A DNA stretch of 64,000 nt, from the NCBI RefSeq assembly GCF_963678975.1, contig NC_089272.1, forward strand, positions 42,289,391 through 42,353,390, given 5' to 3'. A model generated the notes under the pieces. It ran no database searches, was not told the origin of the DNA, and saw only the letters and a program-made list of their open reading frames with translations. Shown piece after piece: positions 10,724 to 59,529 of the stretch. The position numbers were made by a program, and so were the translations under genes. How positions within the stretch are numbered: position 1 is the stretch's first letter; each line of letters begins with the position of its first letter. The stretch is from Dysidea avara (Eukaryota > Porifera > Demospongiae > Dictyoceratida > Dysideidae).

Positions 10724-11356
10724 ATCCTGTGCCAAAAACAGCCCAGCTGTAAAAAAAGGCGAGGCCAAGAATGCACAAGTACATGTTCATGGAGTAACTA
10801 CAACCAAAAGACATGATATCAAAATCTGGCCAAGAAAACATTTACAGTGTAGGCACTTTTATGCATTCATTTTCTATATGCTTCACATTATCACATCCAG
10901 CTAGCTGTACATGTGTGCTTGCAATATAAACAAACAATACTACTGAGACGATAAAAGATGATTACACTGCATTGTTACCAAAATTAATTTAACTAAAAAA
11001 TTACAATTTGTTTCTACTTGGCCATCTTTTTGCACTGTATATTAAAATAAAAAGATGGCTAAGTAGAAACCAATTGTAAATTTTTAGTTAAATTAATTTT
11101 GGTAACAATGCAGTGTAATCATCTTTTATCGTCTCAGTAGTATTGTTTGTTTATATTGCAAGCACACATGTACAGCTAGCTGGATGTGATAATGTGAAGC
11201 ATATAGAAAATGAATGCATAAAAGTGCCTATACTGTAAATGCTTTCTTGGCCAGATTTTGATATCATGTCTTTTGGTTGTAGTTACTCCATGAACATGTA
11301 CTTGTGCATTCTTAGCCTCGCCTTTTTTTACAGCTGGGCTGTTTTTGGCACAGGAT
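10724..11356. repeat. 633-bp foldback (long inverted repeat)
   Basis: Two arms of roughly 290 to 300 bp are near-perfect inverted copies, running from ATCCTGTGCC to GGCACAGGAT around a short centre near 11030-11050. The outer part of each arm (AAAAACAGCCCAGCTG) matches the foldbacks at 43374 and 50182. It forms the 5' end of element C. The open frames on both arms are mirror images and not genes. Confidence 0.9.
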
Positions 11357-16428: not shown

Positions 16429-16838
16429 ATTACTAGGACCGCGTCACATACAACCAAGTACATACACCAACGTGACAGCCCCCTGGTGAGGCTATTAGGT
16501 GGTGAAGGCACAATCCCCAAATCATCTCAATATGTCACAGTAGTGACAAATACAACACAATAGTGGCATCGTAACTAAAGGCCACCAGGCCACCAGTAGC
16601 TAAGTGCCAGTACATCATTGGTGTGTTAATGGCACAGTGATGTGTACACAGTATATGTATACAACACATACAGGAGAGAACTATACATTATTGCAGTATT
16701 GTATGCAGCAATACATTATAGGCAACATCACCAGATAAAAATTATTAGCCAATATACAGCACAGTATCAACAACAACTAGAGCTAAATAAGGTTCATAAG
16801 TGGTGTAGCAATGGCACAGTGATGGGTGACACACTATA
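16429..16838 (-). repeat. dispersed retroposon-like repeat, copy 1
   Basis: On the minus strand it ends in GTACTTGGTTGTATGTGACG, then CGGTCCTAG and TAATAATAATAATAA, a typical LINE/SINE 3' tail. A second copy lies at 17512-17907 in the same orientation, with the unit 16839-17511 between them. A related tail is at 42800-42854. No coding frame. Confidence 0.7.
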
Positions 16839-17511
16839 ATTATGCATACACAACTTGCAGGAGATAGCTACACAATACTGTAGGAGTACGCAAGCCAGAT
16901 GAACCAGATAAAGGAAGACAGCTAAGCCAGCCAGAGCCTAGCAGCTAAGCCAGGTGAAGGCAAAAAAGATTAAGCACGTATTGATTGCCTGACACCAACA
17001 CAAAGGAAGTTCGCCATGCCAGCTGCACAAGACAAAATTGTTTACTTGTATTTTATATGTAACTGTATTGTAAAGAGCGTGGCATGTGTTTTAATGTTTA
17101 ATTACATACTTAATGTGAATGAATCCACTGGCAGCTGGCATGGCAACTTAAGGCGTTACAAACATAAAAAGTTACTTGTAATCTTCTTGTTTATGTGTAA
17201 AGTGGCCTCTGGCTCTCACTCCACGAACATTTGCTAATCTTCTCCTTTGCGCAATCTGTAATTAAGCAAGGGTGTGGTGCTGGGCGTTATATAGAATTAC
17301 ACGTATGGTCAAGTCATCAGCACGAACAGGCACAACGATTATTCGTTTGTGCCTTCATTCACAGGCGAATCTATCCCTGGTTAGTTCATGTCTCTAGGCC
17401 TCGTAGTTTTCGAGAACATTAATTATTAATTCATTATAATTTTATTTATTTATTTATTTATGATGTAATTTTAACCGCATTTCTTATTATTCTTAGTACT
17501 TGGTTGTATAA
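16839..17511 (+). repeat. dispersed repeat that also hosts elements A and B elsewhere
   Basis: This unit, from TTATGCATACACAACTTGCA to the TTAGTACTTGGTTGTATAA tail, is the uninterrupted counterpart of the three pieces 43150-43373, 49938-50181 and 56300-56640. It therefore shows the empty target sites of the two 6-kb insertions: TATAT|GTAAC at about 17054 and AGAAT|TACACG at about 17303. Its short open frames are not conserved in the other copy. Confidence 0.8.
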
Positions 17512-36670: not shown

Positions 36671-37656
36671 ATCGCATTTGCATCCAGTATATATATGCAT
36701 TCATGCACCATAGAATTCCATTAAAAATAATACTGCATACAAGTAAAAATACATGTATACAAAATGTCAGTTTTTTTTCTATAGGTGCATACATGTTAGT
36801 CCAGAAATTTCTTGTGAGAAGATTCTGCAGCAGCAAAGATGCATCAGATACCGTGCAGTGTATATTGCAAGTTTTCTCATTGAACTGCAAGATATAACAA
36901 TACAAACTATGGTAACTAAATAAATCTTACCAGCATAGCTACAATAGAGCAGATGTACATGATTTATGCTGTGATAAAATAATTGTTGATATGTAATATG
37001 AGATAAACATATATGCACTTACCAACTATTGAACAACTGTGCCTAAGGGATGGGTGCATGGTATAACCATCTGATATGTTAGATCAGTTCCTATTAGTAA
37101 CCACAGTATATAGTGGTAGCAAATTGTTTCATTTGCTAGTCTTGCAGTATTCGCTATATCAAGAAACAAAGATCGTAAACAATCTCCAATGTAATAAGCT
37201 AAAGCGTTTACCTGTTTAAAACTGCTAGCAATGGAAAGTCAGTATTACCTAAACTGCCAAACAACATTTTAACTGCAGAATGGTTGTTTAAAGCTACAAA
37301 CCTTAAACACTTGCAGACACACAGCAGTACTATACCCCACAGGTATACACCACTGCAATGAATATCAATCGGCTACTGCATGGAGAGAGAACCATCATTA
37401 TTATAAATGAGAAAACACAATAAGTATAGAGTTAGCTTTACAGTATGTGCGACCTTTGGTCTCGTGCAACCACAATCAGATCGTAGTAAAAGATCTGTGT
37501 TAGCACGGCAAGGTAAATACAAGAACAAAACTGACAAACATACACACATACAGAAAACAAAAAAAAAGTGATTAGTAGTGGTGCAGGTATGTCAGAAAGC
37601 TAAAATACGTCAGTGTACACAAACCAGTTTGTAAGCAACCGCCAGTCACACCATAA
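36671..37656. other. no gene recognised
   Basis: The sense and antisense open frames of 80 to 86 codons around 36650-36900 mirror one another in A/T-rich sequence. Nothing else supportable. Confidence 0.5.
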
Positions 37657-40432: not shown

Positions 40433-41873
40433 TGGCTGCTTGTATATAGTCAACAATAGGGTGTTCTTTAAAAGAACAAAAGATGGAGGTAGAGGGCCAT
40501 GTAGTTGGAGCTGATGTACTCGTGATGCCTAATCAACATGAAAATTTTTTTTTTGGTTGTGCTTTTTGGTTAAGTTTGTTTAACCTATATATACTTATAC
40601 TTTGTATGGTTGTTAAACATGCCATTCTTGCTGCCATTGTGATCTCATTGTTTAATTATATTCCATAGTTACAACTCTGTAATGCTATAGTGAGAGTGAC
40701 CAGACCCTTCCTCTTTTTGTGAAGGAGTGGGTGCTGTCAGGGTAGTACTCTTTCTAGTAGGGTATGGGTGGAATCCTTACATTTTTACATTGTGCGGCCT
40801 CCAGAAATAAATTCAGAAGTCATTCTGTTTAAACAATTACTATATTCTCCATATGCTGCTGATGGGACCAATGCAAAAGGGGAACCAAACATCTATTCAT
40901 CGCTTGACTACGGAGACCAGCCATTGTTCTTGTAGTATTGGTATGCTCTATTAGAGTATCTTGCACCTTCATTGTTTACTGTGAGACTGTCAACCATAGT
41001 CATATCACTAGGGTGCTTTTCAAGAGAGAATTTATAGAGAGCCATTTGGAGCATTTTGGCATCTTGGAATGGAACCAAGGCAATGGCGGATTTAGCATGG
41101 GGAATTTTCAGAATGAGGTTCCATGGAACTCTTTGAACTCCCTGGATCTGCCCCTGTGTTTATATTTGACCAGCCATATTTCCAGTCTGTATTGTATCAC
41201 TTCCAGTAAATGCAAGTGCTGAGCAAATATTTAACATTTCAATACTGCAAGAAACAGGATGATGCTAAACCTGTTATATGCTATCGGCTTTTATTCAATT
41301 CAATTCCATGATCGCTTCTGTATGATAGTGATAACCATTCACAAATTGAATCATGCATATAATATGTGATTGCCTGCTGCCGTGAATACTCTCACCACCA
41401 GCCCTACATGAAACACTGCCAAATGATAGTGTCACTGAGACATGTACCAGCTTTCTCAGAAGCTTTAAGGGTAAACTCGGAGGTACCAAGAGTTACTTAA
41501 TACTGTAGCTAATGGAACTCTAGTAATCAGATATAGCAGAGTCAATTATCCACAGTTATAATAGTGAGCGAAAACCAGCTGTTTTTGTATGGTTCTATTT
41601 TGCAGTAAAAAAGTATTGAGTATAAAAATATGCATGCTACGTAAAAAATTATGCATGTTTTAGTTTTTATGTACTGAAACAAAGCACGAATCAATAAAAC
41701 CTATATAAACCATCAGATTTGCCTTTTCATGGGGAGTAAGACAATCTTTATTTCATGTATATACATCAGAAGCCATGTGAGTTATGGGTGATGCGGTAAA
41801 AATTAAGTTTACCATGGTCACTTCATTGTTGGAATGGTCTTCTTCTTTGTCCACTACTTTTGTTATTATAGAT
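40433..41873. other. no gene recognised
   Basis: Near 41081-41160 a CAATGGCGGATTTAG word and an inverted CTGGATCTGCCCCTG word, 80 bp apart, suggest a tiny deleted CAGGGGCGGATC-type element. One CTCTATTAGAGTATCTTG motif lies at 40945. No gene seen. Confidence 0.4.
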
Positions 41874-42083
41874 AAGTCTGGTTTCTGTAGCAGCTTTCTT
41901 CCGACCCTGTCAAAGCCACGAGTGTGAGATTGGCACCATTAAATGGCCATGGCTTTGTGATAATGGTGTGTAGTGAGCTGGGACTTCACAGAGAGCTCGC
42001 CAATAGTGTTCTCAGTCAATTTGGAGTAATTTGAGGGCCATGGAGGGCCATGGAGAGCCCAAACTTGGCCTCTGGATTCCAAT
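41874..42083. repeat. 210-bp direct duplication, copy 1
   Basis: Nearly identical to 42247-42456 (start AAGTCTGGTTTCTGTAGCAG, end CTCTGGATTCCAAT). The spacing is 373 bp. ATATTAAGACCACCGTCCAC follows both, after 30 extra bases in copy 1. Confidence 0.9.
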
Positions 42084-42246
42084 CGTCTTCTTACTTCATT
42101 TTATACCCGTATATTAAGACCACCGTCCACGGATTTCACATAACAAGGCTTCCACACACACAAAATCAAACTTACGATTTTACCAGAAATGGATTGCTGG
42201 TCTAATACACTATCATATTTCACACTGTACTTCCTTCAGCACTGGC

Positions 42247-42456
42247 AAGTCTGGTTTCTGTAGCAGCTTTCTTCCGACCCTGTCAAAGCCACGAGTGTGA
42301 GATTGGCACCATTAAATGGCCATGGCTTTGTGATAATGGTGTATAGTGAGCTGGGACTTCACAGAGAGCTCGCCAATAGTGTTCTCAGTCAATTTGGAGT
42401 AATTTGAGGGCCATGGAGGGCCATGGAGAGCCCAAACTTGGCCTCTGGATTCCAAT
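42247..42456. repeat. 210-bp direct duplication, copy 2
   Basis: Second copy of the unit at 41874-42083, with one or two substitutions. A 126-codon minus-strand frame that crosses it is probably spurious. Confidence 0.9.
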
Positions 42457-42780
42457 ATTAAGACCACCGTCCACCCCCACCCTCCCACCCTATTACTACC
42501 ACCTGTGATATTATTATCCGCTCGAAAAAAGCTGCTCAAAACAGGGCAAATTTTGGGTATCAGAAATGTATACACCCACTCAATGATAGCTAGTGAACAG
42601 ATGAACAATTGGTGCAAATTTTGTTTGCACAGCTGTAGGTACTGGGAAGTTATTACACAATGATTCCTTAAAATCGCCATATCTCCTAACAAAGCTTTGT
42701 GCGTCGAAGCCTTGTTTTGTCAAATTCAGTCACATATGCACACACTGTGTTGGCCATGCACTGTTTGTACATGCCCCATT

Positions 42781-42854
42781 AGTAGGTTGTCCCGTTGGTG
42801 ATTGTACTTGGTTGTGTTTGTCCCGGGCCTAGTAATAATAATAATAATAATAAT
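42781..42854 (+). repeat. retroposon 3' tail TACTTGGTTGTGTTTGTCCCG...(TAA)n
   Basis: TGTACTTGGTTGTGTTTGTC, then CCGGGCCTAG and about seven TAA units. This is the same tail type as the minus-strand repeat at 16429. Confidence 0.65.
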
Positions 42855-43149
42855 TGTGACTGGGCCTACGAAAATAGGGCATGTGGGCACATAATTTGTG
42901 CCTACTTTTTCAAATTTCATAGGGCATGTGGGCACATAATTTGTGCCTACTTTTTCAAATTTCAATTGCTCATAACTTTTTATACCACACTGCCATGGCC
43001 ATGCAATTTTCAGATCGTAGTAAGCAGTTAATTGGCAGCATGTTGCAAGTTACAGAATGCAAATATTCTGTTCCAATACTGAGATATGACCTGTAGTGTG
43101 ATAGGGTGTAGTTTGTGTCCACATGCCCTGTTTTCGCAGGCCGGTCACA
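42855..43149. mobile_element. TGTGACCGG-family MITE with 44-bp internal duplication
   Basis: Ends TGTGACTGGGCCTACGAAAA and TTTTCGCAGGCCGGTCACA. At 295 bp it is 44 bp longer than its relatives because TAGGGCATGTGGGCACATAA and the following bases are repeated in tandem (about 42875 and 42919). The flanks AAT and ATT do not give a clean TA duplication. Confidence 0.85.
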
Positions 43150-43373
43150 ATTATGCATACACAACTTGCAGGAGATAGCTACACAATACTGTAGGAGTAT
43201 GCAAGCCAGATGAACCAGATAAAGGAAGACAGCCAAGCCTGCAGCCAGAGCCTAGTAGCTACGCCAGGTGATCGCAAAAAAGATTAAGCATGTATTGAAT
43301 TGCCTGACACCAAACACAAAGGAAGTTCGCCATTCCAGCTGCTCAAGACAAAATTGTTTACTTGTATTTTATA
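43150..43373 (+). repeat. host repeat for elements A and B, piece 1
   Basis: Matches 16841-17054 (ATTATGCATACACAACTTGC, GGAAGTTCGCCAT..). It stops at TATA, where element A begins. Confidence 0.9.
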
Positions 43374-43693
43374 TCTAATCAAAAACAGCCAAGCTGTAAA
43401 AAAAGGTGCGGCCCCCAAAAAGGCCATGGTGAAAAAAGATGTGAAATTCAAGGTGGCGGCCAAGAAATGGCTGTGATGGTAGGTTAATGGTTACATTTTA
43501 ATAACAACAATTCAGGTGAATTTGGTGCCAAGACCAAGCGGCACAAAATTCACCTGAATTGTCGTTATTAAAATGTAACCATTAACCTACCATTACAGCC
43601 ATTTCTTGGCCGCCACCTTGGATTTCACATCTTTTTTCACCATGGCCTTTTGGGGGCCGTACCTTTTTTACAGCTTGGCTGTTTTTGATTAGA
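43374..43693. repeat. 320-bp foldback at the 5' end of copy A
   Basis: Arms of about 150 bp (TCTAATCAAAAACAGCC..., ...GGCTGTTTTTGATTAGA) are almost perfectly complementary around a centre near 43530. They include GGCCATGGTGAAAAAAGATG and GGCGGCCAAGAAATGGCTG words. The tips match the foldback of copy C. Confidence 0.95.
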
Positions 43694-43895
43694 TATCACT
43701 TCTTTTTGTATTTGTATACTGCAAAGTCGGCCTATGGCTGGCTTTGGGGCTTTTTTAACCCATGTGTTTTTTTCTTTACTACAGGAAGAAGAAAAAAACT
43801 TAAAGAAGAATTTTAGTACTTCAATTATTTTTGATTTTATTAGTAATTATACAAATTATATACATATATTTATTACATGCCCATTATGCCCCACA

Positions 43896-46800
43896 GGATA
43901 TTTTTTTGCAGCTGATCTCTCTACTGGGTGACTTGAAATGTAGCAGAACTATATACAGGATGGTTTCTTTGTAGCTGAACTCTCTACAAGGTAACCTCTT
44001 CTAGCTGGTCTCTCTACAGGGTATTTTGTTTCTAGCTGAACTCTCTACAGGTGATTTGTTTGCAGCTAAACTCTCTACATGGTGGTGTCTTTGTAGCCGA
44101 ACTCTCTACATGATGGTTTCTTTGTAGCTGAACTCTCTATAAGGTGACTTCGTCTAGCTGAACTCTCTACAGGGTGATTTTTTTGTAGCTGAACTCTCTG
44201 CAGGGTGATTTGTTTGCAGCTGAACTCTCTACATGATGGTTTCTTTGTAGCTGAACTCTCTACAAGGTGACTTCGTCCAGCTGATCTCTCTACGGGGTGA
44301 TTTGTTTCTAGCTGAACTCTCTACAGGTGATTTGTTTGCAGCTAAACTCTCTACATGGTGGTTTCTTTGTAGCTGAACTCCCTACATGATGGTTTCTTTG
44401 TAGCTGAACTCTCTACAAGGTAACTTCTTCTCTACAGGGTGATTTGTTGTAGTTGAATTCTCTACAAGGTGGTTTGTATGAGGCTGAACTCTCTACATGG
44501 CGGTTTCTTTGTAGCTGAACTCTCTACAGAGTGATTTGTTTGCAGCTGAACTCTCTACATGATGGTTTCTTTGTAACTGAACACTCTACAAGGTGACTTC
44601 TTCTAGCTGATCTTTCTACAGGGTGAATTGTTGTAGCTGAACTATCTACAAGGTAACTTCTTCTAGCTGATCTCTATACAGGGTGATTTGTTTGTAGTTG
44701 AATTCTGTACAGGCGGTTTCTTTGTAGCTGAACTGTGTACATGATGGTTTCTTTGTAGCTGAACTCTTTACAAGGTGACTTCTTCTAGCTGAACTCTCTA
44801 CGGGGTAATTTCTTTGTAGCTGAACTCTCTATATGATGGTTTCTTTGTAACTGAACTCTCTACAATGTAACTTCTTTTAGCTGATCTTTCTACTGGGTGA
44901 TTTGTTTGCAGCTGAACTATCTACATGGTGGTTTCTTTGTTGCTGAACTCTCTACAAGGTGAATTCTTCTACCTGATCTCTCTACAGGGTAATTTGTTTG
45001 TAACTGAACTCTGTACAAGTGCGTTTTTGTGGGTGATCTCACTGCAGGTTGATTAGTTTGTAGCTGAACTCACTAAAGGGTGATTTTGCTTGTAGCTGAA
45101 CTCCTTGCATTGTATCTAGTTTTTAGCTGATCTCTCTACAGGGTGATTTGTTTGTAGCTGATCTCTCTACAAGTTGATTTGTGTGTAGCTGATCTCTCTG
45201 CAGGTTGATTAATTTGCAGCCGATCTCTCTACAAGGTAATTTGTTTGTAGCTGAACTGTCTATAAAGTGATTTATTTGTAGCTGATCTCTCTGCAGGTTG
45301 ATTTGTTTTAGCTGAACTCTCTACAGGGTGATTTACTTGTAGCTGAACTCCTTACATTGTGTCTAGTTTCTAGCTGATCTCTCTACAGGGTGATTTGTTT
45401 GTAGCTGATCTCTCTACAAGCTGATTTATTTGTAGCTGAATTCTCTGCAAAGTGTTTTGTTTGTAGCTGACCTCTCTTCAGGGTGATTTGTTTCTAGCTG
45501 ATCTCTCTACAGGGTGATTTTTTTTGTAGCTGACCTCTCATCAGGGTGATTTGTTTCTAGCTGATCTCTCTACAGGGTGATTTTTTGTAGCTGATCTCTA
45601 TACAAGTTGATTTGTTTCTAGCTGATTGCTCTGCAGGTTGATTTGCTTGTAGATGAACTCTCTACAGGATAACTTGCTTGTAGCTGAACTCCTTACTTTG
45701 TGTCTAGTTTGTAGCTGATCTCTCTACAGGGTGATTTGTTTGTAGCTGAACTCCTTACATTGTGTGTAGTTTCTAGCTGATCTCTCTACAGGGTGATTTG
45801 TTTGTAGCCGATCTCTCTACAAGGTAATTTGTTTGTAGCTGAACTATCTATAAGGTGATTTGTATGTAGCTAATCTCTCTGCAGATTGATTTGTTTTAGC
45901 TGAACTCTGATTTGTTTTTAGCTTATCTCTGTACAGGTTGATTTGTGTGTAACTGATCTCTCTACAAGCTGATTTGTTTGCAGCTGATCACTCTGCAGGT
46001 TGATTTGTTTCTAGATGATCTCTCTACAGGTTGATTTGTTTGTTGCTGATCGCTCTAAAGGTTGATTTGTTTGTAGCTGAACTCTCTGCAAAATGTTTTG
46101 TTTGTAGTTGATCTCTCTACAAGGTGATTTTTTGTAGCTGACCTCTCTTCAGGGTGATTTGTTTCTAGCTGATATCTCTACAGGGTGATTTTTGTAGCTG
46201 ACCTCTCTTCAGGGTGATTTGTTTCTAGCTGATCGCTCTACAAGTTGGTTTGTTTGTAGCTGAACTCTCTACACGGTGATTTGCTTGTAGCTGAACTCCT
46301 TACATTGTGTCTAGTTTCTAGCTGATCTCTCTACAGGGTGATTTGTTTGTAGCTGATCTCTCTACAAGTTGAATTGTGTGTAGCTGATCTCTCTGCAGGT
46401 TGATTTGTTTGTAGCCGATGTCTCTACAAGGTAATTTGTTTGTAGTTGAACTGTCTAAAAGGTGATTTGTTTGTAGCTGATCTCACTGCAGGTTGATTTG
46501 TTTTAGCTGAACTCTCTACAGGGTGATTTATTTGTAGCTGAACTCCTTACATTGTGTGTAGTTTCTAGCTGATCTCTCTACAGGGTGATTTGTTTGTAGC
46601 TGATCTCTCTATAAGTTGATTTGTGTGTAGCTGATCTCTCTGCAGGTTGATTTGTTTGTAGCCGATCTCTCTATAGGGTAATTTGTTTGTAGCTGAACTC
46701 TCTACAAGTTGATCTGTGTGTAGCTGATCTCTCTGCAGGTTGATTTGTTTGTAGCCGATCTCTCTACAGGGCAATTTGTTTGTAGCTGATCTCTCTACAG

Positions 46801-49085
46801 GGTGATTTTTTTGTAGCTGACCTCTCTTCAGGGTGATTTGTTTCTAGCTGATCTCTCTACAGGGTGATTTTTTGTAGCTGACCTCTCTTCAGGGTGATTT
46901 GTTTCTAGCTGATCTCTCTACAGGGTGATTTGTTTGTAGCTGATCTCTCTATAAGTTGATTTGTGTGTAGCTGATCTCTCTGCAGGTTGATTTGTTTGTA
47001 GCCGATCTCTCTATAGGGTAATTTGTTTGTAGCTGAACTCTCTACAAGTTGATCTGTGTGTAGCTGATCTCTCTGCAGGTTGATTTGTTTGTAGCCGATC
47101 TCTCTACAGGGCAATTTGTTTGTAGCTGATCTCTCTACAGGGTGATTTTTTTGTAGCTGACCTCTCTTCAGGGTGATTTGTTTCTAGCTGATCTCTCTAC
47201 AGGGTGATTTTTTGTAGCTGACCTCTCTTCAGGGTGATTTGTTTCTAGCTGATTGCTCTACAGGTTGATTTTTTTGTAGATGAACTCTCTACAGGGTAAT
47301 TTGCTTGTAGCTGAACTCCTTACTTTGTGTCTAGTTTGTAGCTGATCTCTCTACAGGGTGATTTGTTTGTAGCTGATCTCTATACAAGTTGATATGTGTG
47401 TAGCTGTTCTCTCTGCAGGGTGATTTGTTTGTAGCCGATCTCTCTACAAGGTAATTTGTTTGTAGTTGAACTATCTATAAGGTGATTTGTTTGTAGCTGA
47501 TCTCTCTGCAGATTGATTTGTTTTAGCTGAACTCTCTACAGGATGATTTGTTTCTAGCTTATCTCTCTACAGGTTGATTTGTTTGTTGCTGATCGCTCTA
47601 AAGGTTGATTTGTTTGTAGCTGAACTCCTTACATTGTGTGTAGTTTCTAGCTGATCTCTCTACAGGGTGATTTGTTTGTAGCTGATCTCTCTACAAGTTG
47701 ATTTGTGTGTAGCTGATCTCTCTGCAGGTTGATTTGTTTGTAGCCGATCTCTCTAAAGGTAATCTGTTTGTAGCTGAACTCTCTATAAGGTGATTTGTTT
47801 GTAGCTGATCTCTCTGCAGGTTGATTTGTTTTATCTGAACTCTCTACAGGGTGATTGCTTGTAGCTGAACTCCTTACATTGTGTCTAGTTTCTAGCTGAT
47901 GTCTCTACAGGGTGATTTGTTTCTAGCTTATCTCTCTACAGGTTGATTTGTTTGTTGCTGATCGCTCTAAAGGTTGATTTGTTTGTAGCTGAACTCTCTG
48001 CAAAGTGTTTTGTTTGTAGTTGATTTCTCTACAAGGTGATTTTTTTGTAGCTGACCTCTCTTCAGGGTGATTTGTTTCTAGCTGATATCTCTACAGGGTG
48101 ATTTTTTGTAGCTGACCTCTCTTCAGGGTAATTTGTTTCTAGCTGATCGCTCTACAGGTTGGTTTGTTTGTAGCTGAATTCTCTAAAGGGTGATTTGCTT
48201 GTAGCTGAACTCCTTACATTGTGTGTAGTTTCTAGCTGATCTCTCTACAGGGTGATTTGTTTGTAGCTGATCTCTCTACAAGTTGATTTGTGTGTAGCTG
48301 ATCTCTCTGCAGGTTGATTTGTTTGTAGCCGATCTCTCTACAGGTAATCTGTTTGTAGCTGAACTCTCTATAAGGTGATTTGTTTATAGCTGATCTCTCT
48401 ACAGGGTGATTTGTTTGTAGCTGATCTCTCTACAAGTTGATTTGTGTGTAGCTGATCTCTCTGCAGGTTGATTTGTTTGTAGCCGATCTCTCTACAGGTA
48501 ATCTGTTTGTAGCTGAACTCTCTATAAGGTGATTTGTTTGTAGCTGATCTCTCTGCAGGTTGATTTGTTTTAGCTGAACTCTCTACAGGGTGATTGCTTG
48601 TAGCTGAACTCCTTACATTGTGTCTAGTTTCTAGCTGATGTCTCTACAGGGTGATTTTTTGTAGCTGAACTCTCTACATGGTGATTTGTTTCTAGCTTAT
48701 CTCTCTACAGGTAGATTTGTGTTTATTTGTTCATTGCTGATCGCTCTAAAGGTTGATTTGTTGCAGCCGAACACCCTGCAAAGTGTTTTGTTTGTAGCTG
48801 ATCACTCTAAAGGGTAATTTGTTTGTAGCTGAACTCTCTCCACAGTGACTTGTGTGTAGCTGAATTCTGTGTAACTGAATTCTCTAGAGAGTGACTTAAT
48901 TGTAGCTGAATTCTCTACACAGTGCATGACTTGTTTATAGCTGAACTTTCTTCAGTGTGACTTTTAATGTTCTGAATCTCTATAGTGATATATTTGCTTA
49001 ACTCTCCACATGGTGACTGTCTTCTTGCTGAACTGTCTATAAGATTAACTGTTTGCAGCTGAACTCCCTACAGAATAACTTGTGA
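43896..49085 (+). repeat. 31-bp tandem repeat array in copy A (about 165 units)
   Basis: The consensus unit is close to GTAGCTGATCTCTCTACAGG followed by GTGATTTGTTT, 31 bp. Variants GAACTCTCTACA and CCTTACATTGTGTCTAG recur at regular spacing, giving higher-order blocks. For example, 46565-46774 and 46905-47114 are identical at a 340-bp offset. The minus-strand frames through it simply repeat a short peptide and are not genes. Confidence 0.95.
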
Positions 49086-49937
49086 TGTAATAAAATTCTA
49101 TAATGGAATAAATAAATTAGCCAAATTCTCTATTAGGGTGACTGTTCTATTAGAGTATCTCGATCTCGCATTTGCTGCACGGAGTTGGCTTTCGAATCAT
49201 AACTCAGTGGTTTGTAATCCGATTCTTCTGTACTACTGCAAGGACTTTCTATGAAGATTAGTCCAGCTATACAACGATTTTCAGCTCATTGCTCTAAGCG
49301 GTTTGCCTAGTAGGCGTGAAAACAAATACTTTTTTATTCATAAAAATCGATCGCGTAATTGTGACACAGGTTGGGTTTTGTGTCATATCTCCGTGGTCTT
49401 TATCTCGATTCCTTTCAAACCACCAAACGGCACTCCTACGATGGTTACTCCATCTACATAGCAATTTTCAACTCATTCCATGAAGCGGTTTACCCTGTAG
49501 GCGTGACAACAAATCGATCTTGTTTTACGCGAATAATCGGTCATAACTCCTTAACCATTCATCGGATTTGTACCAAATTTGATGCTAGGATTCGCCTTTG
49601 GACTCCCTTTCTGTGTGCCAAATTTCACGGCGATCGGAGTACGCGTTTTCTTGTTATAGCAATTTTTGCAAGTGTGCGAAAAGACGAAGAAGAAGGAAAA
49701 AAACAACGAAACTTTGGCAGCTCGTATCTCGGAAATGGCTGGAGTGATTTCCTTCAAATTTGAAATGTAGACTCCCTTGGCTGGCGGACAACTGTGTAGC
49801 AAATTTGGTTCCAATCAGATAAGTGATCACCGAGATACAAAGGTGTGAAAATGACGTTTTCGTTCTTCCTGTCAATATACTCACGGGTGTGGCGCGCCGG
49901 CTTCTTGGGCCGCACGACACACTACCGTGTGTCTTGA
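49086..49937 (+). other. unique right domain of copy A
   Basis: This domain begins with CTCTATTAGGGTGACTG and TTCTATTAGAGTATCTCGAT. It contains two similar 150-bp segments (49180-49330 and 49370-49520, both with TCAACTCATT-like and AGCGGTTT..AGGCGTG words), then a purine-rich AAGACGAAGAAGAAGG stretch and the terminal hairpin. A 130-codon plus-strand frame (49371-49763) is broken in copy B, so coding is unlikely. Confidence 0.7.
49916..49937 (+). terminator. terminal hairpin of copy A
   Basis: GACACAC-TACC-GTGTGTC forms a perfect 7-bp stem followed by TTGA and the element end. In rolling-circle elements such a hairpin marks transposition termination; it is not a transcription terminator. That role is inferred. 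Confidence 0.65.
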
Positions 49938-50181
49938 TGTAACTGTATTGTAAAGAGCGTGGCATATGTTTTAATGTTTCTTGTATTGTTTATTGACGGG
50001 AATGAATCTACTGGCAGCTGGCATGGAGACTTGAGATGTTACAAACATAAAAGCTTACTCGAAATCTTCTTGTTTACACGTAAAGTGGCCTCTGGCTCTC
50101 CTGCACAGGCATCGCTAATATTCTCCTTCGCGTAATCTGTAAATAATTAAGCAAGGGTGTGGTACTTGGCGTTATATAGAA
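49938..50181 (+). repeat. host repeat for elements A and B, piece 2
   Basis: Matches 17055-17303 (GTAACTGTATTGTAAAGAGC to GGCGTTATATAGAA). It ends at A50181, where element B begins. Confidence 0.9.
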
Positions 50182-50504
50182 TCTAATCAAAAACAGCCAA
50201 ACTGTAAAAAAAGGTGCGGCCCCCAAAAAGGCCATGGTGAAAAAAGATGTGAAATCCAAGGTGGCGGCCAAGAAATGGCTGTGATGGTAGGTTAATGGTT
50301 ACATTTTAATAACAACAATTCAGGTGAATTTGGTGCCAAGACCAAGCGGCACAAAATTCACCTGAATTGTCGTTATTAAAATGTAACCATTAACCTACCA
50401 TCACAGCCATTTCTTGGCCGCCACCTTGGATTTCACATCTTTTTTCACCATGGCCTTTTTTGGGGGCCGCACCTTTTTTTACAGTTTGGCTGTTTTTGAT
50501 TAGA
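50182..50504. repeat. foldback at the 5' end of copy B
   Basis: Nearly identical to 43374-43693. The arms pair from TCTAATCAAAAACAGCC to GGCTGTTTTTGATTAGA. Confidence 0.95.
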
Positions 50505-50704
50505 TATCACTTCTTTTTGTATTTGTATACTGCAAAGCCGGCCTATGGCTGGCTTTGGGGCTTTTTTAACCCATGTGTTTTTTTCTTTACTACAGGAAGA
50601 AGAAAAGAACTTAAAGAAGAATTTTAGTACTTCAATTATTTTTGATTTTATTAGTAATTATACAAATTATATACATATATTTATTACATGCCCATTATGC
50701 CCCA

Positions 50705-51986
50705 CAGGATATTTTTTTGCAGCTGATCTCTCTACTGGGTGACTTGAAATGTAGCTGAACTATATACAGGATGGTTTCTTTGTAGCTGAACTCTCTACAA
50801 GGTAACCTCTTCTAGCTGGTCTCTCTACAGGGTATTTTGTTTCTAGCTGAACTCTCTACAGGTGATTTGTTTGCAGCTAAACTCTCTACATGGTGGTGTC
50901 TTTGTAGCCGAACTCTCTACATGATGGTTTCTTTGTAGCTGAACTCTCTATAAGGTGACTTCGTCTAGCTGAACTCTCTACAGGGTGATTTTTTTGTAGC
51001 TGAACTCTCTGCAGGATGATTTGTTTGCAGCTGAACTCTCTACATGATGGTTTCTTTGTAGCTGAACTCCTTACATTGTGTCTAGTTTCTAGCTGATCTC
51101 TCTACAGGGTGATTTGTTTGTAGCTGATCTCTCTACAAGTTGATTTGTGTGTAGCTGATCATTCTACAGGTTGATTTGTTTGTAGCCGATCTCTCTACAG
51201 GGTAATTTGTTTGTAGCTGAACTCTGTACAAGGTGCTTTTTTGTAGGTGATCTCACTGCAGGTTGATTTGTTTGTAGCTGAACTCACTAAAGGGTGATTT
51301 GCTTGTAGCTGAACTCCTTACATTGTGTCTAGTTTCTAGCTGATCTCTCTACAGGGTGATTTGTTTGTAGCTGAACTCTCTATAAGGTGATTTGTTTGCA
51401 GCTGAACTCTCTACATGGTGGTTTCTTTGTTGCTGAACTCTCTACAGGGTGATTTGTTTCTAGCTTATCTCTCTACAGGTTGATTTGTGTGTAACTGATC
51501 TCTCTACAAGCTGATTTGTTTGTAGCTGAATTCTCTGCAAAGTGTTTTGTTTGTAGCTGACCTCTCTTCAGGGTGATTTGTTTCTAGCTGATCTCTCTAC
51601 AGGGTGATTTTTTTGTAGCTGACCTCTCTTCAGGGTGATTTGTTCCTAGCTGATCTCTCTACAGGGTGATGTTTTGTAGCTGACCTCTCTTCAGGGTGAT
51701 TTGTTTCTAGCTGATTGCTCTGTAGGTTGATTTGCTTGTAGATGAACTCTCTACAGGGTAACTTGCTTGTAGCTGAACTCTTTACTTTGTGTCTAGTTTG
51801 TAGCTGATCTCTCTACAGGGTGATTTGTTTGTAGCTGAACTCCTTACATTGTGTGTAGTTTCTAGCTGATCTCTCTACAGGGTGATTTGTTTGTAGCTGA
51901 TCTCTATACAAGTTGATTTGTGTGTAGCTGATCTCTCTGCAGGGTGATTTGTTTGTAGCCGATCTCTCTACAAGGTAATTGTTTGT
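50705..51986 (+). repeat. 31-bp tandem array in copy B, part 1
   Basis: Same 31-bp unit as copy A. The first units (to about 51060) match copy A in order and then diverge by rearrangement. Confidence 0.95.
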
Positions 51987-51994
51987 AGCTGAAC

Positions 51995-52432
51995 TAGGCA
52001 TGAGGCTATTATGCTCCAAAAATTGAACATTATGCTTTTGAGCAGTGCTCAAAAAATCACCTATTATGCTTTTGAGAATTACCCATTATTCTCAAAATTA
52101 TGCCACCATAATTGGCCAGTTCATTGCTGTATCAGGCCATTTTCATTGATGTTTAAGCTTCAAATAGTCTTGAATTCTTTAGCTGGTTGCTGTATTAGAG
52201 TATTTCAATTCAATTGACTGCTTTATTAGAGTAAATAATCTTTAGTGACTGTTCTATTAGAGTTTCTGACTGCTCTATTAGAGTATCTCGATCTTTTTAA
52301 ACGGAATTGTGCAATCTGCAGATTTTCCTACTGTTAAAGCTTTATAATCACCTCAAAATGCTAGCATAATTCCTGATTCCCACACATACCTATTATGCCC
52401 GAAATTATGCCGGCATAATCGCCGCATCTCTA
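51995..52432. mobile_element. hAT-like MITE inserted in the array
   Basis: Ends TAGGCATGAGGCTATTATGC and GCATAATCGCCGCATCTCTA with a perfect 8-bp duplication AGCTGAAC (51987-51994, 52433-52440) that is itself part of the 31-bp unit. It belongs to the same family as 4302-5441 (GCATAAT-rich ends) and carries four CTATTAGAGT motifs at 52190-52290. Confidence 0.9.
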
Positions 52433-55400
52433 AGCTGAACTATCTATAAGATGATTTGTATGTAGCTAATCTCTCTGCAGATTGATTTGTTTTAGCTGAA
52501 CTCTGATTTGTTTTTAGCTTATCTCTGTACAGGTTGATTTGTGTGTAACTGATCTCTCTACAAGCTGATTGTTTGTTGCTGATAACTCTGCAGGTTGATT
52601 TGTTTCTCTACAGGTTGATTTGTTTGTTGCTGATCGCTCTAAAGGTTGATTTGTTTGTAGCTGAACTCTCTGCAAAATGTTTTGTTTGTAGTTGATCTCT
52701 CTACAAGGTGATTTTTTGTAGCTGACCCCTCTTCAGGGTGATTAGTTTCTAGCTGATCTCTCTACAGGGTAATTTTTTGTAGCTGACCTCTCTTCAGGGT
52801 GATTTGTTTCTAGCTGATTGCTCTACAGGTTGGTTTGTTTGTAGATGAACTCTCTACAGGGTAATTTGCTTGTAGCTGAACTCCTTACTTTGTGTCTAGT
52901 TTGTAGCTGTTCTCTCTGCAGGGTGATTTGTTTGTAGCCGATCTCTCTACAAGGTAATTTGTTTGTTGCTGATCGCTCTAAAGGTTGATTTGTTTGTAGC
53001 TGAACTCTCTGCAAAATGTTTTTTTTGTAGTTGATTTCTCTACAAGGTGATTTTTTGTAGCTGACCTCTCTTCAGGGTGATTTGTTTCTAGCTGATATCT
53101 CTACAGGGTGATTTTTTGTAGCTGACCTCTCTTCAGGGTAATTTGTTTCTAGCTGATCGCTCTACAGGTTGGTTTGTTTGTAGCTGAACTCTCTACAGGG
53201 TGATTTGCTTGTAGCTGAACTCCTTACATTGTGTCTAGTTTCTAGCTGATCTCTCTACAGGGTGATTTGTATGTAGCTGATCTCTCTACAAGTTGAATTG
53301 TGTGTAGCTGATCTCTCTGCAGGTTGATTTGTTTGTAGCCGATCTCTGTACAAGGTAATTTGTTTGTAGCTGAACTATCTATAAGGTGATTTGTTTGTAG
53401 CTGATCTCTCTGCAGGTTGATTTGTTTTAGCTGAACTCTCTACAGGGTAATTTGTTTTTAGCTGAACTCCTTACATTGTGTGTAGTTTCTAGCTGATCTC
53501 CCTACAGGGTGATTTGTTTGTAGCTGATCTCTCTACAAGTTGATTTGTGTGTAGCTGATCTTTCTACTGGTTGATTTGTTTGTAGCCGATCTCTCTACAT
53601 GTAATCTGTTTGTAGCGGAACTCTCTATAAGGTGATTTGTCTGTAGCTGATCTCTCTATAGGGAAATTTGTTTGTAGCTGAACTGTCTAAAAGGTGATTT
53701 GTTTGTAGCTGATCTCTCTGCAGATTGATTTGTTTTAGCTGAACTCTCTACAGGGTGATTTGTTTCTAGCATATCTCTCTACAGGTTGATTTGTTTGTTG
53801 CTGATTGCTCTATAGCTGAACTCTCTGCAAAATGTTTTTTTTGTAGTTGATTTCTCTACAAGGTTTTATTTTATAGCTGACCTCTCTTCAGGGTGATTTG
53901 TTTCTAGCTGATATCTCTACAGGGTGATTTTTTGTAGCTGACCTCTCTTCAGGGTAATTTGTTTCTAGCTGATCGCTCTACAGGTTGGTTTGTTTGTAGC
54001 TGAACTCTCTACAGGGTGATTTGCTTGTAGCTGAACTCCTTACATTGTGTCTAGTTTCTAGCTGATCTCTCTACAAGTTGAATTGTGTGTAGCTGATCTC
54101 TCTGTAGGTTGATTTGTTTGTAGCCGATCTCTCTACAAGGTAATTTGTTTGTAGCTGAACTATCTATAAGGTGATTTGTTTGTAGCTGATCTCTCTGCAG
54201 GTTGATTTGTTTGTAGTCGATCTCTCTACATGTAATCTGTTTGTAGCGGAACTCTCTATAAGGTGATTTGTCTGTAGCTGATCTCTCTGCAGGTTGATTT
54301 GTTTTAGCTGAACTCTCTACAGGGTGATTGCTTGTAGCTGAACTCCTTACATTGTGTCTAGTTTCTAGCTGATCTCTCTACAAGTTGAATTGTGTGTAGC
54401 TGATCTCTCTGTAGGTTGATTTGTTTGTAGCCGATCTCTCTACAAGGTAATTTGTTTGTAGCTGAACTATCTATAAGGTGATTTGTTTGTAGCTGATCTC
54501 TCTGCAGGTTGATTTGTTTGTAGTCGATCTCTCTACATGTAATCTGTTTGTAGCGGAACTCTCTATAAGGTGATTTGTCTGTAGCTGATCTCTCTGCAGG
54601 TTGATTTGTTTTAGCTGAACTCTCTACAGGGTGATTGCTTGTAGCTGAACTCCTTACATTGTGTCTAGTTTCTAGCTGATCTCTCTACAAGTTGAATTGT
54701 GTGTAGCTGATCTCTCTGTAGGTTGATTTGTTTGTAGCCGATCTCTCTACAAGGTAATTTGTTTGTAGCTGAACTATCTATAAGGTGATTTGTTTGTAGC
54801 TGATCTCTCTGCAGGTTGATTTGTTTGTAGTCGATCTCTCTACATGTAATCTGTTTGTAGCGGAACTCTCTATAAGGTGATTTGTCTGTAGCTGATCTCT
54901 CTGCAGGTTGATTTGTTTTAGCTGAACTCTCTACAGGGTGATTGCTTGTAGCTGAACTCCTTACATTGTGTCTAGTTTCTAGCTGATGTCTCTACAGGGT
55001 GATTTTTTGTAGCTGAACTCTCTACAGGGTGTTTTGTTTCTAGCTTATCTCTCTACAGGTAGATTTGTGTTGATTTGTTTATTGCTGATCGCTCTAAAGT
55101 TTGATTTGTTGCAGCTGAACACCCTGCAAAGTGTTTTGTTTGTAGCTGATCACTCTAAAGGGTAATTTGTTTGTAGCTGAACTCTCTCCACAGTGACTGT
55201 GTGTAGCTGAATTCTGTGTAACTGAATTCTCTAGAGAGTGACTTAATTGTAGCTGAATTCTCTACACAATGCATGACTTGTTTATAGCTGAACTTTCTTC
55301 AGTATGACTTGTAATGTTCTGAATCTCTATAGTGATATATTTGCTTAACTCTCCACATGGTGACTGTCTTCTTGTTGAACTGTCTATAAGATTAACTGTT

Positions 55401-55435
55401 TGCAGCTGAACTCCCTACAGAATAACTTGTGTTGT
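52433..55435 (+). repeat. 31-bp tandem array in copy B, part 2, with 307-bp higher-order repeats
   Basis: Three consecutive blocks begin with GTGTCTAGTTTCTAGCTGAT at 54047, 54354 and 54661, exactly 307 bp apart and almost identical. The terminal units after 54960 match the end of the copy A array. Confidence 0.95.
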
Positions 55436-56299
55436 AATAAAATTCTATAATGGAATAAATAAATTATCCGAATGCTCTATTAGGGTGACTGTTCTATTAG
55501 AGTATCTCGATCTCGCATTTGCTACACGGAGTTGGCTTTCGAATCATAACTCAGTGGTTTGTAATCCGATTCTTCTGTACTACTGCAAGGACTTTCAATG
55601 AAGATTATTCCAGCTATACACCGATTTTCAGCTCATTGCTCTAAGCGGTTTGCCTAGTAGGCGTGAAAACTAATACTTTTTTATTCATAAAAATCGATCG
55701 CGTAATTGTGACACAGGTTGGGTTTTGTGTCATATCTCCGTGGTCTTTATCTCGATTCCTTTCAAACCACCAAAAGGCACTCCTACGATGGTTACTCCAT
55801 CTACATAGCAATTTTCAACTCATTCCATGAAGCGGTTTACCCTGTAGGCGTGACAACAAATCGATCTTGTTTTACGCGAATAATCGGTCATAACTCCTGA
55901 ACCATTCATCGGATTTGTACCAAATTTGATGCTAGGATTCGCCTTTGGACTCCCTTTCTGTGTGCCAAATTTCAAGGCGATTGGAGTACGCGTTTGCTTG
56001 TTACAGCAATTTTTGCAAGTGTGCGAAAAGACGAAGAAGAAGAAGAAAAAAACGAAGAAAGAAAAAAAACGAAACTTTGGCAGCTCGTATCTCGGAAATG
56101 GCTGGAGCGATTTCCTTCAAATTTGGAATGTAGACTCCCTTGGCTGGCGGGCAACTGTGTAGCAAATTTGGTTCCAATCAGATAAGTGATCACCGAGATA
56201 CAAAGGTGTGAAAATGACGTTTTCATTCTTTCTGTCAATATACTCACGGTGTGGCGCGTCGGCTTCTTGGGCCGCACGACACACTACCGTGTGTCTTGA
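55436..56299 (+). other. unique right domain and terminal hairpin of copy B
   Basis: Collinear with 49086-49937 with few substitutions. The 130-codon frame of copy A is broken here at 55900, and the purine-rich GAAGAAGAAGAAG stretch is longer. Confidence 0.8.
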
Positions 56300-56640
56300 T
56301 TGCACGTATGGTCACGTCATCAGCACGAACAGGAGTGATGATTATACATTTGTGCCTTCATTCATAGGCGAATCTATCCCCGGTTAGTTCATGTCTCTAG
56401 ACCTCATAGTTTTCGAGAACATTAATTATTAATTATTATTTATTTATTTATGACGTAGTTTTAACCGCATTTCGTATTATCTTTAGTACTTTTTTTTTTT
56501 CCCGGGCTAGATGTAATGCCCTTTCCTACCACCCCCAGCACAAGAGGCAAACGTGCTGGACAAGAACTGAAAAGCGGGACATCTAAAATTATTTGTTATA
56601 TCTTTAGTACTTGGTTGTATAATAATAATAATAATAATTA
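56300..56640 (+). repeat. host repeat for elements A and B, piece 3 (3' tail)
   Basis: Matches 17304-17511 (CACGTATGGTCA, AGGCGAATCTATCCC, TTTTCGAGAACATTAATTA). It ends in the tail TTAGTACTTGGTTGTATAATAA, with a small insertion at 56492-56599. Confidence 0.85.
56492..56599 (-). mobile_element. 108-bp retroposed fragment with target duplication
   Basis: On the minus strand a ~100-bp sequence ends in GCCCGGG and a run of about ten A. It is flanked by ATCTTTAGTACTT at 56479-56491 and 56600-56612 (13 bp). This is a short LINE-mobilised copy; the source was not recognised. Confidence 0.75.
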
Positions 56641-56648
56641 TTATTATT
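56620..56648. repeat. (TAA)n/(ATT)n microsatellite
   Basis: ATAATAATAATAATAATT followed by ATTATTATTATTAATT at the end of the repeat tail. Confidence 0.85.
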
Positions 56649-57480
56649 ATTAATTGTAATATTTTGCTTTGGTTACTTGATGCAGTATTTGTTATAAGCT
56701 GAATTAATTGGATTTCTCTAGTCTTGTTAGTAATAGTAAGATGTTCACACTTTGAGATCATTACCAACTATTTAATACTTAAAAACGAAAGACTGGTCTA
56801 TTAGAGAGTTTTAAAATTGTTTTGTCATAAATCACAAATAGTTGTACTGAGAGCTAATTGATGTGTACAGACAGCTTTATTGATCAACCAGTAGCTTGTC
56901 TAACTAATGAAATCCATACAAGTGCAAATTATATTCATATGGTTATAAGTGTCATTTAGTCTGGACTATGTCGCCACTATTATCTTAAACAAGATTCATA
57001 GTTGCAATGAATTCATTAGCCCATATGGTACTACTAATAATACTCTAAATATCAAAGCCTACAATTATTCTTTGAAGGATTGCTGTGCGCTGTAACAAAA
57101 ATAAATCTAAAAATGGGTGACTGCTTTATTAGAGTAACTCAAAATAATTGTGCTCATATCAGTAGCAGTTATACACTTACAATAACTTTTTTTGCATTGA
57201 CGTATTGAGTGGTTAGATGGCTGTTTATCTAGCTAATGGAATCCCTACAATTGTAAACTATATTCACACCGCTACTGGCGACACGTCTGACACATTTGAC
57301 TTCTATAATGTGATTCATTATTAAAGGAAGTTTATTAGTCCCTATGATGTATATAGCACTGTACTAAGTGTTTCTGCTTAAAAGTAGTCTTGAAAATGCT
57401 CTGTATAGTACCAAAATCCATAATGACTGTATTCACTGACTCTAATAGAGCATTCACCAAATTCGCAAAATTGTTATGTT
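56649..57480. other. no gene recognised
   Basis: Intergenic. It carries CTATTAGAG-type motifs at 56793, 57125 and (inverted) 57430. Confidence 0.5.
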
Positions 57481-57486
57481 ATGTAT

Positions 57487-59480
57487 TTAGTAACATAACA
57501 TTAACCATTCTTGTGCCCAGTGAGCAATAATAGATAAGTCCTCTTGTAGAATTAAAATGTCTTCCTCTGAATTAATTTCCCTGTATAGAATTACATCATC
57601 AGCATAAAGCCTGATTGTGGAAGATATTTTAGTAGGTAGGTCATTAATGTACAATAGGAAAAGAAGAGGTCCTAGCACCGAGCCTTGAGGTACTCCTGAT
57701 AGGACACTACTAATACAGCTGTTCTCATTATCTAGTAATACTTGCTGTCGTCTGTTTTGGAGAAAGTCACTTATCCAATTATAAAGAGCTTGAGGTCCTC
57801 TTATGCCAAAGTGAGATAGTTTATATAGTAAACGTTGGTGGGAAACTTTGTCAAATGCTTTAGAGAAATCAAGTAAAAGGAGATCAATTTGGTGTCCTAT
57901 GTTTAAAGATGAAGTTAGATCTTGAACTATTTCTAGCAATTGTGTTTCACAGGAGTGGTTTTTCCCGAAAACCATATTGTTCACTACAAATTATATTATG
58001 CAAGTTAGCATGAGCAGATATGGAAGAAACTACTATGTGTTCAAAAACCTTACAGCAGATAGCATACAAGTTAAAGAAATTGGCTTGTAATTTGTGAGTT
58101 CAGTTCTTGATCCTTTCTTAAAGACTGGGATGACAAAAGCACTTTTCCAATCAGTTGGGAGTTTCCCTTGGTGAAGAGATGCATTGAATATTAGGGCAAG
58201 TGCTGGTGCTATATACTCAGATGTTTTCTTAAGAAATCTAGCAAGGATACCATCAGGGCCATGTGGGTTGTGAGCATTCAGATTTTTTAAGAGGGGTATA
58301 ATACCATCAGCATCAACATAAAGTGGAGGAATACTAGGGAGTGGACTGCTCTCAAATGGAGGTAATCAATCTGCAGAACTGTTGTCAATTGTAAAAACTG
58401 ATGAAAAGTGATCATTTAGAATGTTTGCCTTGTCAACATTATCAGTGTATGTCTTATTATCTTTCTGAAGCATTGGTATTCCACATTGGTCATTCCTCTT
58501 TGATTTAATACAAGAACTGTTGTTATCTATGAGTTTAGATATGTAGGAATCATGTGCATTATGGCATTCTCTCTGAACTAGGTGTTTTAGGTCTTTATAA
58601 GCTTTCCAATAAGATTCAAGTTGAGAAGAATGAGCTTTATTATATGATCTTTTTTATTGGAGAGATATTTGATATCTAGAAGATGGTATGCACAGTTTAG
58701 AAGGAATTATTTGTAAACATTTATGACATTCATCTTTGAAAATATTCCACAGATCTTGAATTTGGGTATCAGTAGTATATATACAAACCTAGATGAAAAA
58801 CAATGCATTCTTTCATTAACAGACTGCCAGTCAGCTTGGTGCCACATAAACACTGTTCAGGGTTTGGGTTCAGTAACGATAGCTGATAGAGTAGATTCAA
58901 TAGTGATGACTTCGTGATCACTTAAACCTCAACTCTGTGGGTCTGTTGGTAACAAATAAATCCAAGGTATTACTACCACTTGTTGGTGAGTCAACCATTT
59001 GAGTAAGTCCAAAAGTACTGAATGTATCAATTAACATATTACATAAGTCTAAAGGATATGAACTACCTATGGCGGTGTTTAAACTCCAGTTAATATTTGG
59101 TAGATTAAAGTCACCTGTAACCCACAAAACAGCTTTCTTGTACTTAATACACAGATTTTCTATTATTTTATATACAATTTGCATATATTGTATATCTCTG
59201 CTGGGTGGTCTTTATACAGTCAATACAATTAAGATTTGGCCATCAGACAGATTGACCCTACAAGCTACTGCTTCACACTGAGTATGTAAAGGAATTTGTG
59301 TGCAGTTAATAGTATTATGACATGCAAAAAATACTCCGCCATAACCATCCACTCTGTTTACCCAGAATACTTGATAATCTTGTGGAAAGATTTGTTGTTA
59401 TAACCATCAGAATTCAACCATGTTTCTGTCCCTGCAATAAAATCTGGAGATTAAGACTGTACTCAGTAAGTGCTTAAATT
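57487..59480 (-). pseudogene. CR1-like LINE ORF2: endonuclease and reverse transcriptase, decayed
   Basis: On the minus strand the endonuclease starts near 59460 with GTETWLNSDG and continues with VNRVDGYGGVFFACH, a YRPP motif whose Tyr is now a stop, and GDFNLPNINW. TLDLFVTNRPTEL near 58940 closes the endonuclease part visible here. The RT fingers near 58340-58050 read AHNPHGPDGILARF, KLPTDWKSAFVIPVFKKGS and NYKPISLT. The palm in the open frame 57984-57487 reads LLLLDFSKAFDKVSHQRLL, LSGVPQGSVLGPLLFLLYIN and IRLYADDVILYR, with the YADD catalytic motif intact. The copy stops at EEDILILQEDL...HWAQEW, so the 3' part is missing. Several stops and frameshifts occur between the domains. Confidence 0.9.
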
Positions 59481-59529
59481 ACTCTTTCTTTGATCTTAAT
59501 CTTCTGAAATTAACTTGAAAGAGTTTTAA

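Follow-up and report, generated by a model that had tools for sequence, protein, structure and literature searches.

Do the two repeat-rich units at positions 43374 to 56299 of this 64,000-nucleotide stretch of the genome of the sponge Dysidea avara (C1:42289391-42353390, called the window below) represent insertions of one mobile element and, if so, of what kind? An earlier note on this DNA had read them as two mobile units, in which a giant foldback, an expanded 31-bp minisatellite array and a right domain travel together. We hold with considerable confidence that these units, copies A and B, arose by separate insertions of a single non-autonomous rolling-circle (Helitron/Helentron-type) family, here called family 1, in a Dysidea sponge. 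The genome comprises 550.8 Mb in 108 contigs, and the sample analysed in detail was 314 kb long, consisting of the window, 200 kb flanking the window and 50 kb from contig C2; positions on the stitched C1 sequence minus 100000 give window positions. Genome-wide counts of 3' ends were made by pattern matching of the 22-base 3' end, with the reversed pattern as control.

Copies A and B are 6,564 and 6,118 bp long, respectively, and their outer boundaries are identical, as had been claimed: each starts A|TCTAATCAAAAACAGCC and ends GTGTGTCTTGA|T. The parts stand in the same order in both, namely foldback, a head of about 200 bp, 31-bp array and right domain, as follows (window positions):

43374..49937, plus strand: copy A, complete element, A|TC...TTGA|T
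43374..43693, plus strand: giant 5' foldback of A, a 320-bp palindrome
43406..43414, plus strand: 5' subterminal inverted repeat GTGCGGCCC of A (weak alone)
43694..43892, plus strand: head region of A (TATCACTTCTTTTTG...), kept across copies
43893..49073, plus strand: 31-bp minisatellite array of A
49100..49937, plus strand: right domain of A
49907..49915, plus strand: 3' subterminal inverted repeat GGGCCGCAC of A (weak alone)
49916..49937, plus strand: 3' hairpin GACACACTACCGTGTGTC and TTGA of A
50182..56299, plus strand: copy B, complete element, A|TC...TTGA|T
50182..50504, plus strand: giant 5' foldback of B, a 323-bp palindrome
50505..50703, plus strand: head region of B
50704..51995, plus strand: 31-bp array of B, first part
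51996..52432, no strand assigned: foreign stretch of about 437 bp that splits the array of B
52433..55419, plus strand: 31-bp array of B, second part, with a 307-bp higher-order repeat
55447..56299, plus strand: right domain of B, 96% identical to that of A
56278..56299, plus strand: 3' hairpin and TTGA of B

When each whole palindrome is compared with its own reverse complement, loop counted, the identity is 92.5% in A and 95.1% in B, and the heads of the two copies are 99% identical. The window contains four matches to a 16-base end word, at most two mismatches being allowed, one for each arm of the two copies, where 0.06 would be expected by chance. The 3' hairpin of family 1 has a 7-bp stem and stands 4 nt before the terminus, and the right domain of two copies contains reverse-strand open stretches of 187 and 194 codons.

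The most direct evidence for insertion comes from the DNA around the two copies, which, as the earlier note had recognized, interrupt the same dispersed repeat at two different points. An uninterrupted copy of that repeat is present in the window:

16838..17501, plus strand: uninterrupted target-repeat copy, with the empty site of A at 17057|17058 and that of B at 17296|17297

This copy matches the interrupted repeat at 86.7% over 678 bp, and its empty sites read ATTTTATA^TGTAACTG and ATAGAA^TTACACG, each with the insertion point at A^T. A tandem duplication of one insertion was rejected because A and B occupy separate positions in the target repeat, 244 bp of which lies between the two copies. 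Insertion between A and T thus stands at both empty sites; the companion claim, that no target is duplicated, does not stand in that form, since the target is AT at both sites and duplication-free insertion is inseparable there from a duplication of 1–2 bp (T, A or AT). The predicted preference for AT sites is borne out: all six complete copies in the sample run A|TC...TTGA|T, all ten family-1 5' ends in it start with TC and are preceded by A, and 6,201 of the 6,289 exact 3' ends genome-wide (3,062 + 3,139; 98.6%) are followed by T, with 88 (43 + 45) standing before A, C or G. Beyond AT, the two flanks have nothing in common in four of the six complete copies, and the other two (the 210k and 239k copies) have TAA in both flanks, so that no consistent longer target duplication is seen. 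An ordinary terminal inverted repeat transposon was rejected on this ground and because the two ends of the element differ.

These flanks also bear on a cut-and-paste foldback DNA transposon of the Tetris/FB type that acquired a tandem array, an explanation suggested by the long near-perfect palindrome and the internal tandem repeats, both of which are found in Tetris (PMC4079207, consulted in part). Tetris of Drosophila virilis is described there as having long inverted repeats at both ends, tandem repeats inside the arms and duplications of 8–10 bp, and it resembles family 1 as a foldback with tandem repeats that can seed satellite DNA. However, the palindrome of family 1 is at the 5' end alone in all six complete copies, the other end being the 7-bp-stem hairpin, and nothing longer than AT is duplicated at the two empty sites. 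No target duplication of 8–10 bp was found in the two empty-site comparisons, and the flanks of the other four complete copies share at most TAA (two are unmatched and two have TAA). We therefore consider a Tetris/FB origin very improbable.

If A and B belong to a mobile family, many copies with the same ends should exist, and they do: the 22-base 3' end, allowing up to two mismatches, has 6,826 + 6,832 = 13,658 matches in the genome, compared with a single match for the reversed control. Six complete copies are present in the 314 kb (A, B and four more on stitched C1), along with a number of partial copies and pieces:

70717-75703, 180697-188722, 210737-215054 and 239278-242386 (stitched C1): complete copies
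6663-7648 (stitched): partial copy, right domain and array
8328-9065 (stitched): partial copy, foldback, head and array
52683-54387 (stitched): partial copy, right domain, array and a piece of head, with the end TTGG
56464-59959 (stitched): partial copy cut in the right domain
56247-56447 (with a piece of head) and 176064-176194 (stitched): foldback pieces
167798-168121 and 258527-259261 (stitched): diverged right-domain or end pieces
29336-29658 (C2): solo foldback, without head, array or right domain
C2, at the edges of the stretch: two truncated partial copies

The order foldback, head, array and right domain is the same in all six complete copies, which agrees with the claim that these parts travel as one unit, and it is unchanged in every partial copy that keeps at least two of them. 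Some complete copies contain internal insertions or deletions; one such change, of about 0.9 kb, lies within the right domain in the 72k copy, and the head of the 210k copy is cut down to a few matching bases. Separately, the last 62 bp of an element copy, hairpin included, are tandemly duplicated at stitched C1 242304-242448 (L019:8304-8448), each ending TTGA|T. Arrays of 4–5 kb may collapse or expand in assemblies, and one could ask whether the units are an assembly artefact, or independent minisatellites that chance to adjoin foldbacks; with junctions and part order identical in six of six complete copies and thousands of ends across the genome, this is hardly credible. Sequence like copy A makes up 40,124 of the 314,000 bp of the sample, 27,866 of the 250,000 bp outside the window and 1,747 of the 50,000 bp from C2, and as a rough guess, given that the sample is not random, the family may amount to a tenth of the genome.

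The arrays themselves behave as part of the element. Tandem Repeats Finder reports 31-bp arrays of 4–5 kb, that of A with 143.9 copies from 44429 plus shorter rows, and counted with a loose pattern the units number 166 in A and 135 in B. Every array segment in the 314 kb, except one 29-bp match, adjoins other family-1 parts, and an independent minisatellite was rejected for this reason. Within the array of B a 307-bp block is repeated 3.9 times at 95% identity, which points to growth of the array in place. The foreign stretch at 51996-52432 that splits this array is rich in TATTATGC/GCATAAT words and bears the CTATTAGAG motif.

The foldback also occurs apart from the other parts. There is the solo foldback on C2, and since other families start with similar foldbacks, this structure represents the 5' end of a broader class rather than something peculiar to this unit. 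Family 2 (stitched 41161-47060 and 84304-89438) has a different body on the same plan of giant 5' palindrome, 3' hairpin and TTGA: its palindrome is about 810 bp long, it ends GGCCGCGCGACTCACTACYGTGAGTCTTGA|T and has no 31-bp array, and the first bases of its second copy are unlike those of the first. A third family can probably be put together from a foldback start at stitched 180374, the other arm at 189036 and a 3' end at 193570. Between these two foldback arms (stitched C1 180374-189036; L013, L014) a family-1 copy is nested, at A^T. One more related foldback is in the window:

10724..11356, minus strand: related foldback, A|TCCTGTGCCAAAAACAGCCC, interpreted as the 5' end of a further family on the minus strand

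The 3' end of this last element was not found.

Are the two arms of these foldbacks held to each other? Ten foldbacks of usable length in the sample were aligned (not included were the fragments at 56247-56447 and 176064-176194 and a damaged foldback on contig C5, described below), and in 16 of 159 pairs both sides had changed with pairing kept. The average over 1,000 shuffles was 5.9 such pairs, and no shuffle gave more than 11; a further 45 pairs of the alignment had one-sided breaks only. The alignment thus supports, but does not prove, joint change of the arms, as the shuffling leaves the relatedness of the copies in place. Such joint changes would fit selection that maintains the hairpin, and equally the use of one arm as a template for the other.

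Structures shared between the two ends were sought as subterminal inverted repeats (subTIRs), the score of each pair being compared with those of 2,000 shuffles. In family 2 GCGCGCCCAAGAAACTACAA and GCGCGGCCAAGAAACTACAA agree at 19 of 20 bases at offsets of 32 (5') and 22 (3'), and none of the shuffles did as well. Family 3 has a repeat of 11 bases at offsets 45 and 30 (6 of 2,000 shuffles as good), and copy A of family 1 one of 9/9 bases at offsets 32 and 22 (61 of 2,000 as good). It appears from these scores that the 5' and 3' ends have subterminal inverted repeats in common, a relationship that is strong in family 2 and weak in family 1 and so only partly established.

How do these features compare with those of known elements? 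The fit to a rolling-circle mechanism that had been proposed holds in that A^T insertion, 5' TC and a 3' hairpin are all observed, and so does the reported lack of a CTRR end, for all six complete copies end in TTGA and one partial copy in TTGG. Canonical Helitrons share with family 1 the 5' TC, insertion at A^T without evident duplication, the 3' hairpin and ends that are mostly unlike each other; they differ in ending with CTRR rather than TTGA, in having the hairpin about 11 rather than 4 nt from the end, and in that family 1 has subterminal repeats and the giant 5' palindrome. Helentrons and HINEs (DINE-1, Cg_HINE), according to the parts of PMC4067079 and PMC7492417 consulted, resemble it in their 3' palindrome, their central tandem repeats and their thousands of dispersed copies, and perhaps in their subTIRs (strong in family 2, weak in family 1), whereas family 1 is flanked by A|...|T and not placed inside T runs, and starts with TC. 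Tandem-repeat-bearing Helentron derivatives are indeed known, as the earlier note stated, but the consulted part of PMC7492417 describes them with small inverted repeats and few units: Cg_HINE of Crassostrea gigas has an inverted repeat of 7–12 bp beside the subTIR, compared with 5' palindromes of 320–810 bp here, and arrays that average up to 5 monomers of 138–181 bp (longest 29.3), whereas A and B each have more than 100 units, 31 bp long. The proto-Helentron of Phytophthora infestans, with Helitron-like ends, A^T sites and Helentron-like protein features, also mixes the traits of the two groups, but has 5' TT and 3' CTAG where family 1 has 5' TC and 3' TTGA, and a giant palindrome is not described for it in the sections of PMC4067079 consulted. 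The same sections characterize Helitron2 by palindromes at both ends together with asymmetrical terminal inverted repeats; of these, the palindromes at both ends are seen in family 1. Family 1 fits best as a variant that mixes Helitron traits (5' TC, A^T) and Helentron traits (subTIRs, central repeats); we file it under neither group, because CTRR, hairpin spacing and a T-rich target are lacking while features of both are present.

From these ends and sites we infer rolling-circle chemistry, in which each end would have its own role. A Rep/helicase would nick at the 5' TC of the element and displace one strand, displacement would be halted at the 3' end by the short hairpin and the TTGA behind it, and the single-stranded copy would enter a new site between an A and a T, with no duplication. 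On the single strand the giant 5' palindrome could fold, thereby exposing the subterminal repeat. The 31-bp array would be a passenger between the end modules, growing in place by block duplication of units and multiplied at every transposition.

Such a mechanism calls for an enzyme, and Helitron_like_N matches in this genome number at least 150, with 150 of 230 candidates scored; many of them are in open frames of more than 1,100 residues. The DNA downstream was examined at five Rep loci (L027, L028, L029, L034 and the copy at C13:9067551). At one of the five, L027 on contig C5, a 31-bp array, a right domain and an exact family-1 3' end (L036) come after the Rep gene and share its orientation, and upstream of its OTU and Rep genes are a family-1 5' end A|TCTAATCC, a damaged foldback and a head (L041). 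A stretch with Rep/helicase between the two family-1 ends, a possible counterpart of the full-length relative that the earlier note had suggested seeking, thus exists at C5:5444800-5456067. It is 11,268 bp long and was read except for 1,045 bp (5452455-5453499); its genes may belong to the element or may have come from another one. The predicted proteins have an OTU domain (PF02338, 8.4e-10, upstream of Rep in L027), Helitron_like_N (1.2e-61) and PIF1 (1.5e-8). The Rep frame stops 45 residues into L036, just past GQLYVAFSRAR, and no C-terminal endonuclease domain was found, there being no room for one after the last helicase motif, with the 1,045 bp between L027 and L036 outside view. A family-1 3' end would fall on the right strand within 3 kb of a given locus by chance in about 4% of cases (one end per 40 kb), and the matching 5' half makes a coincidence less likely. 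Judged by its sequence, the C5 copy is a candidate autonomous partner of family 1.

The C5 copy may instead be a composite, in which a family-1 copy took up the OTU-Rep/helicase gene of a different element, for instance through recombination of dispersed repeats. A dispersed repeat with many other copies does lie on both sides of the gene (at least 148 matching pieces, from the 40 of 835 candidates that were scored), and just after the gene, inside that repeat, a hairpin and CTAA|T (L036 position 629) can be read as the end of another Helitron. In addition, the close relatives L028 and L029 have no array in the 2.3–2.4 kb downstream, and bases 1-351 of L036 matched themselves alone among the 40 places scored out of 835 candidates. 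Against this, the foldback, head, gene, array, right domain and 3' end are all in one orientation, and the halves are complementary, the 5' half being without array and right domain and the 3' half without foldback and head. We give the composite a little under half of our belief. At two of the five Rep loci (L034 and C13), canonical-looking hairpins with CTAG|T ends are found downstream, which suggests that ordinary Helitrons are also present in this genome. These ends, at C8:4056400-4059399 (L035) and C13:9061500-9064499 (L037), have related stems (CCTGCACG... and CCCTGCACG...).

Several of these observations weigh against a rolling-circle assignment. There is no CTRR, and the hairpin is 4 rather than about 11 nt from the end. 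The family-1 subterminal repeat is weak: the 210k copy's own ends score only 8, and 235 of 2,000 shuffles are as good. Some mismatched pairs of ends do as well as true ones, since the family 2 5' end against family 1 3' ends scores 9, equal to family 1's own pair, and the family 3 5' end against the family 2 3' end scores 11, equal to family 3's own pair, both at other offsets. The CTAG|T ends downstream of the L035/L037 Reps belong to other families, and the Rep of family 1 itself is only a candidate. Finally, the TAA in both flanks of the 210k and 239k copies is a possible 3-bp duplication, and the data would be explained just as well by a 2-bp duplication of AT, the ends then being CTAATC...CTTG. 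These last points favour an element with another transposase that makes a short duplication (AT, or TAA in some copies) and has ends such as CTAATC...CTTG, for which it also speaks that AT duplication is inseparable by sequence from A^T insertion. On the other hand, four of the six complete copies share at most AT, two of them with an empty site, and the features of the ends (5' TC, 3' hairpin, subterminal repeats), together with the presence of OTU/Rep/helicase genes in one copy, point to the rolling-circle type. We consider the short-duplication element unlikely, and retain a rolling-circle family as the best description of copies A and B.

It is possible, and we propose it tentatively, that this family represents a separate rolling-circle lineage between Helitrons and Helentrons, with a giant 5' palindrome of matched arms (kept by selection or hairpin-templated copying), a TTGA hairpin end, an array-bearing OTU-Rep/helicase partner, and a minisatellite spread to thousands of sites and perhaps a tenth of the genome. 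Traits that have been used to split Helitrons from Helentrons are joined here, which bears on the end features that Rep needs, and the jointly changing arms of the 5' palindrome make the role of 5'-end structure testable. The family also clearly exemplifies how a transposon can spread long satellite-like arrays in a genome, here that of an early-branching animal.

No description of a Dysidea family of this kind or of a Helitron with a giant 5' palindrome was found in the literature searched, the scope of which did not include most subscription papers or Repbase. The D. avara genome paper (PMC12909245, consulted in part), which reports a draft assembly from HiFi reads, has neither "helitron" nor "satellite" in its main text as consulted. 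Viral contigs (three patterns) and GTDB genome contigs (one pattern) contained no family-1 copy, and the sole match in that search was L001, from a bacterial metagenome-assembled genome, with 20 bases in common.

Other features of the window are as follows. The motif TGACTGYTCTATTAGAGTATCTCGATC, often doubled, is scattered through it and is also found between the array and the right domain of the element; its core word has seven window matches with up to three mismatches and none in 100 shuffles. The sites are:

13448-13504, 38259-38302, 40946-40966, 49130-49165, 52192-52293, 55477-55512, 57126 and 62728-62773: TGACTGYTCTATTAGAGTATCTCGATC motif sites

Open frames at 25612-27693, 29115-29963, 31921-32697 and 34054-34830 read like retroelement pol, gag-like and tyrosine-recombinase proteins. 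In a search made on the recombinase, the minus-strand frame at 31921-32697 was 97% identical to a named Dysidea avara protein. Lastly, a small array of palindromic TGTAGTGAACGTCACTAC units occupies 36442-36671, and similar units are present at stitched C1 69411.

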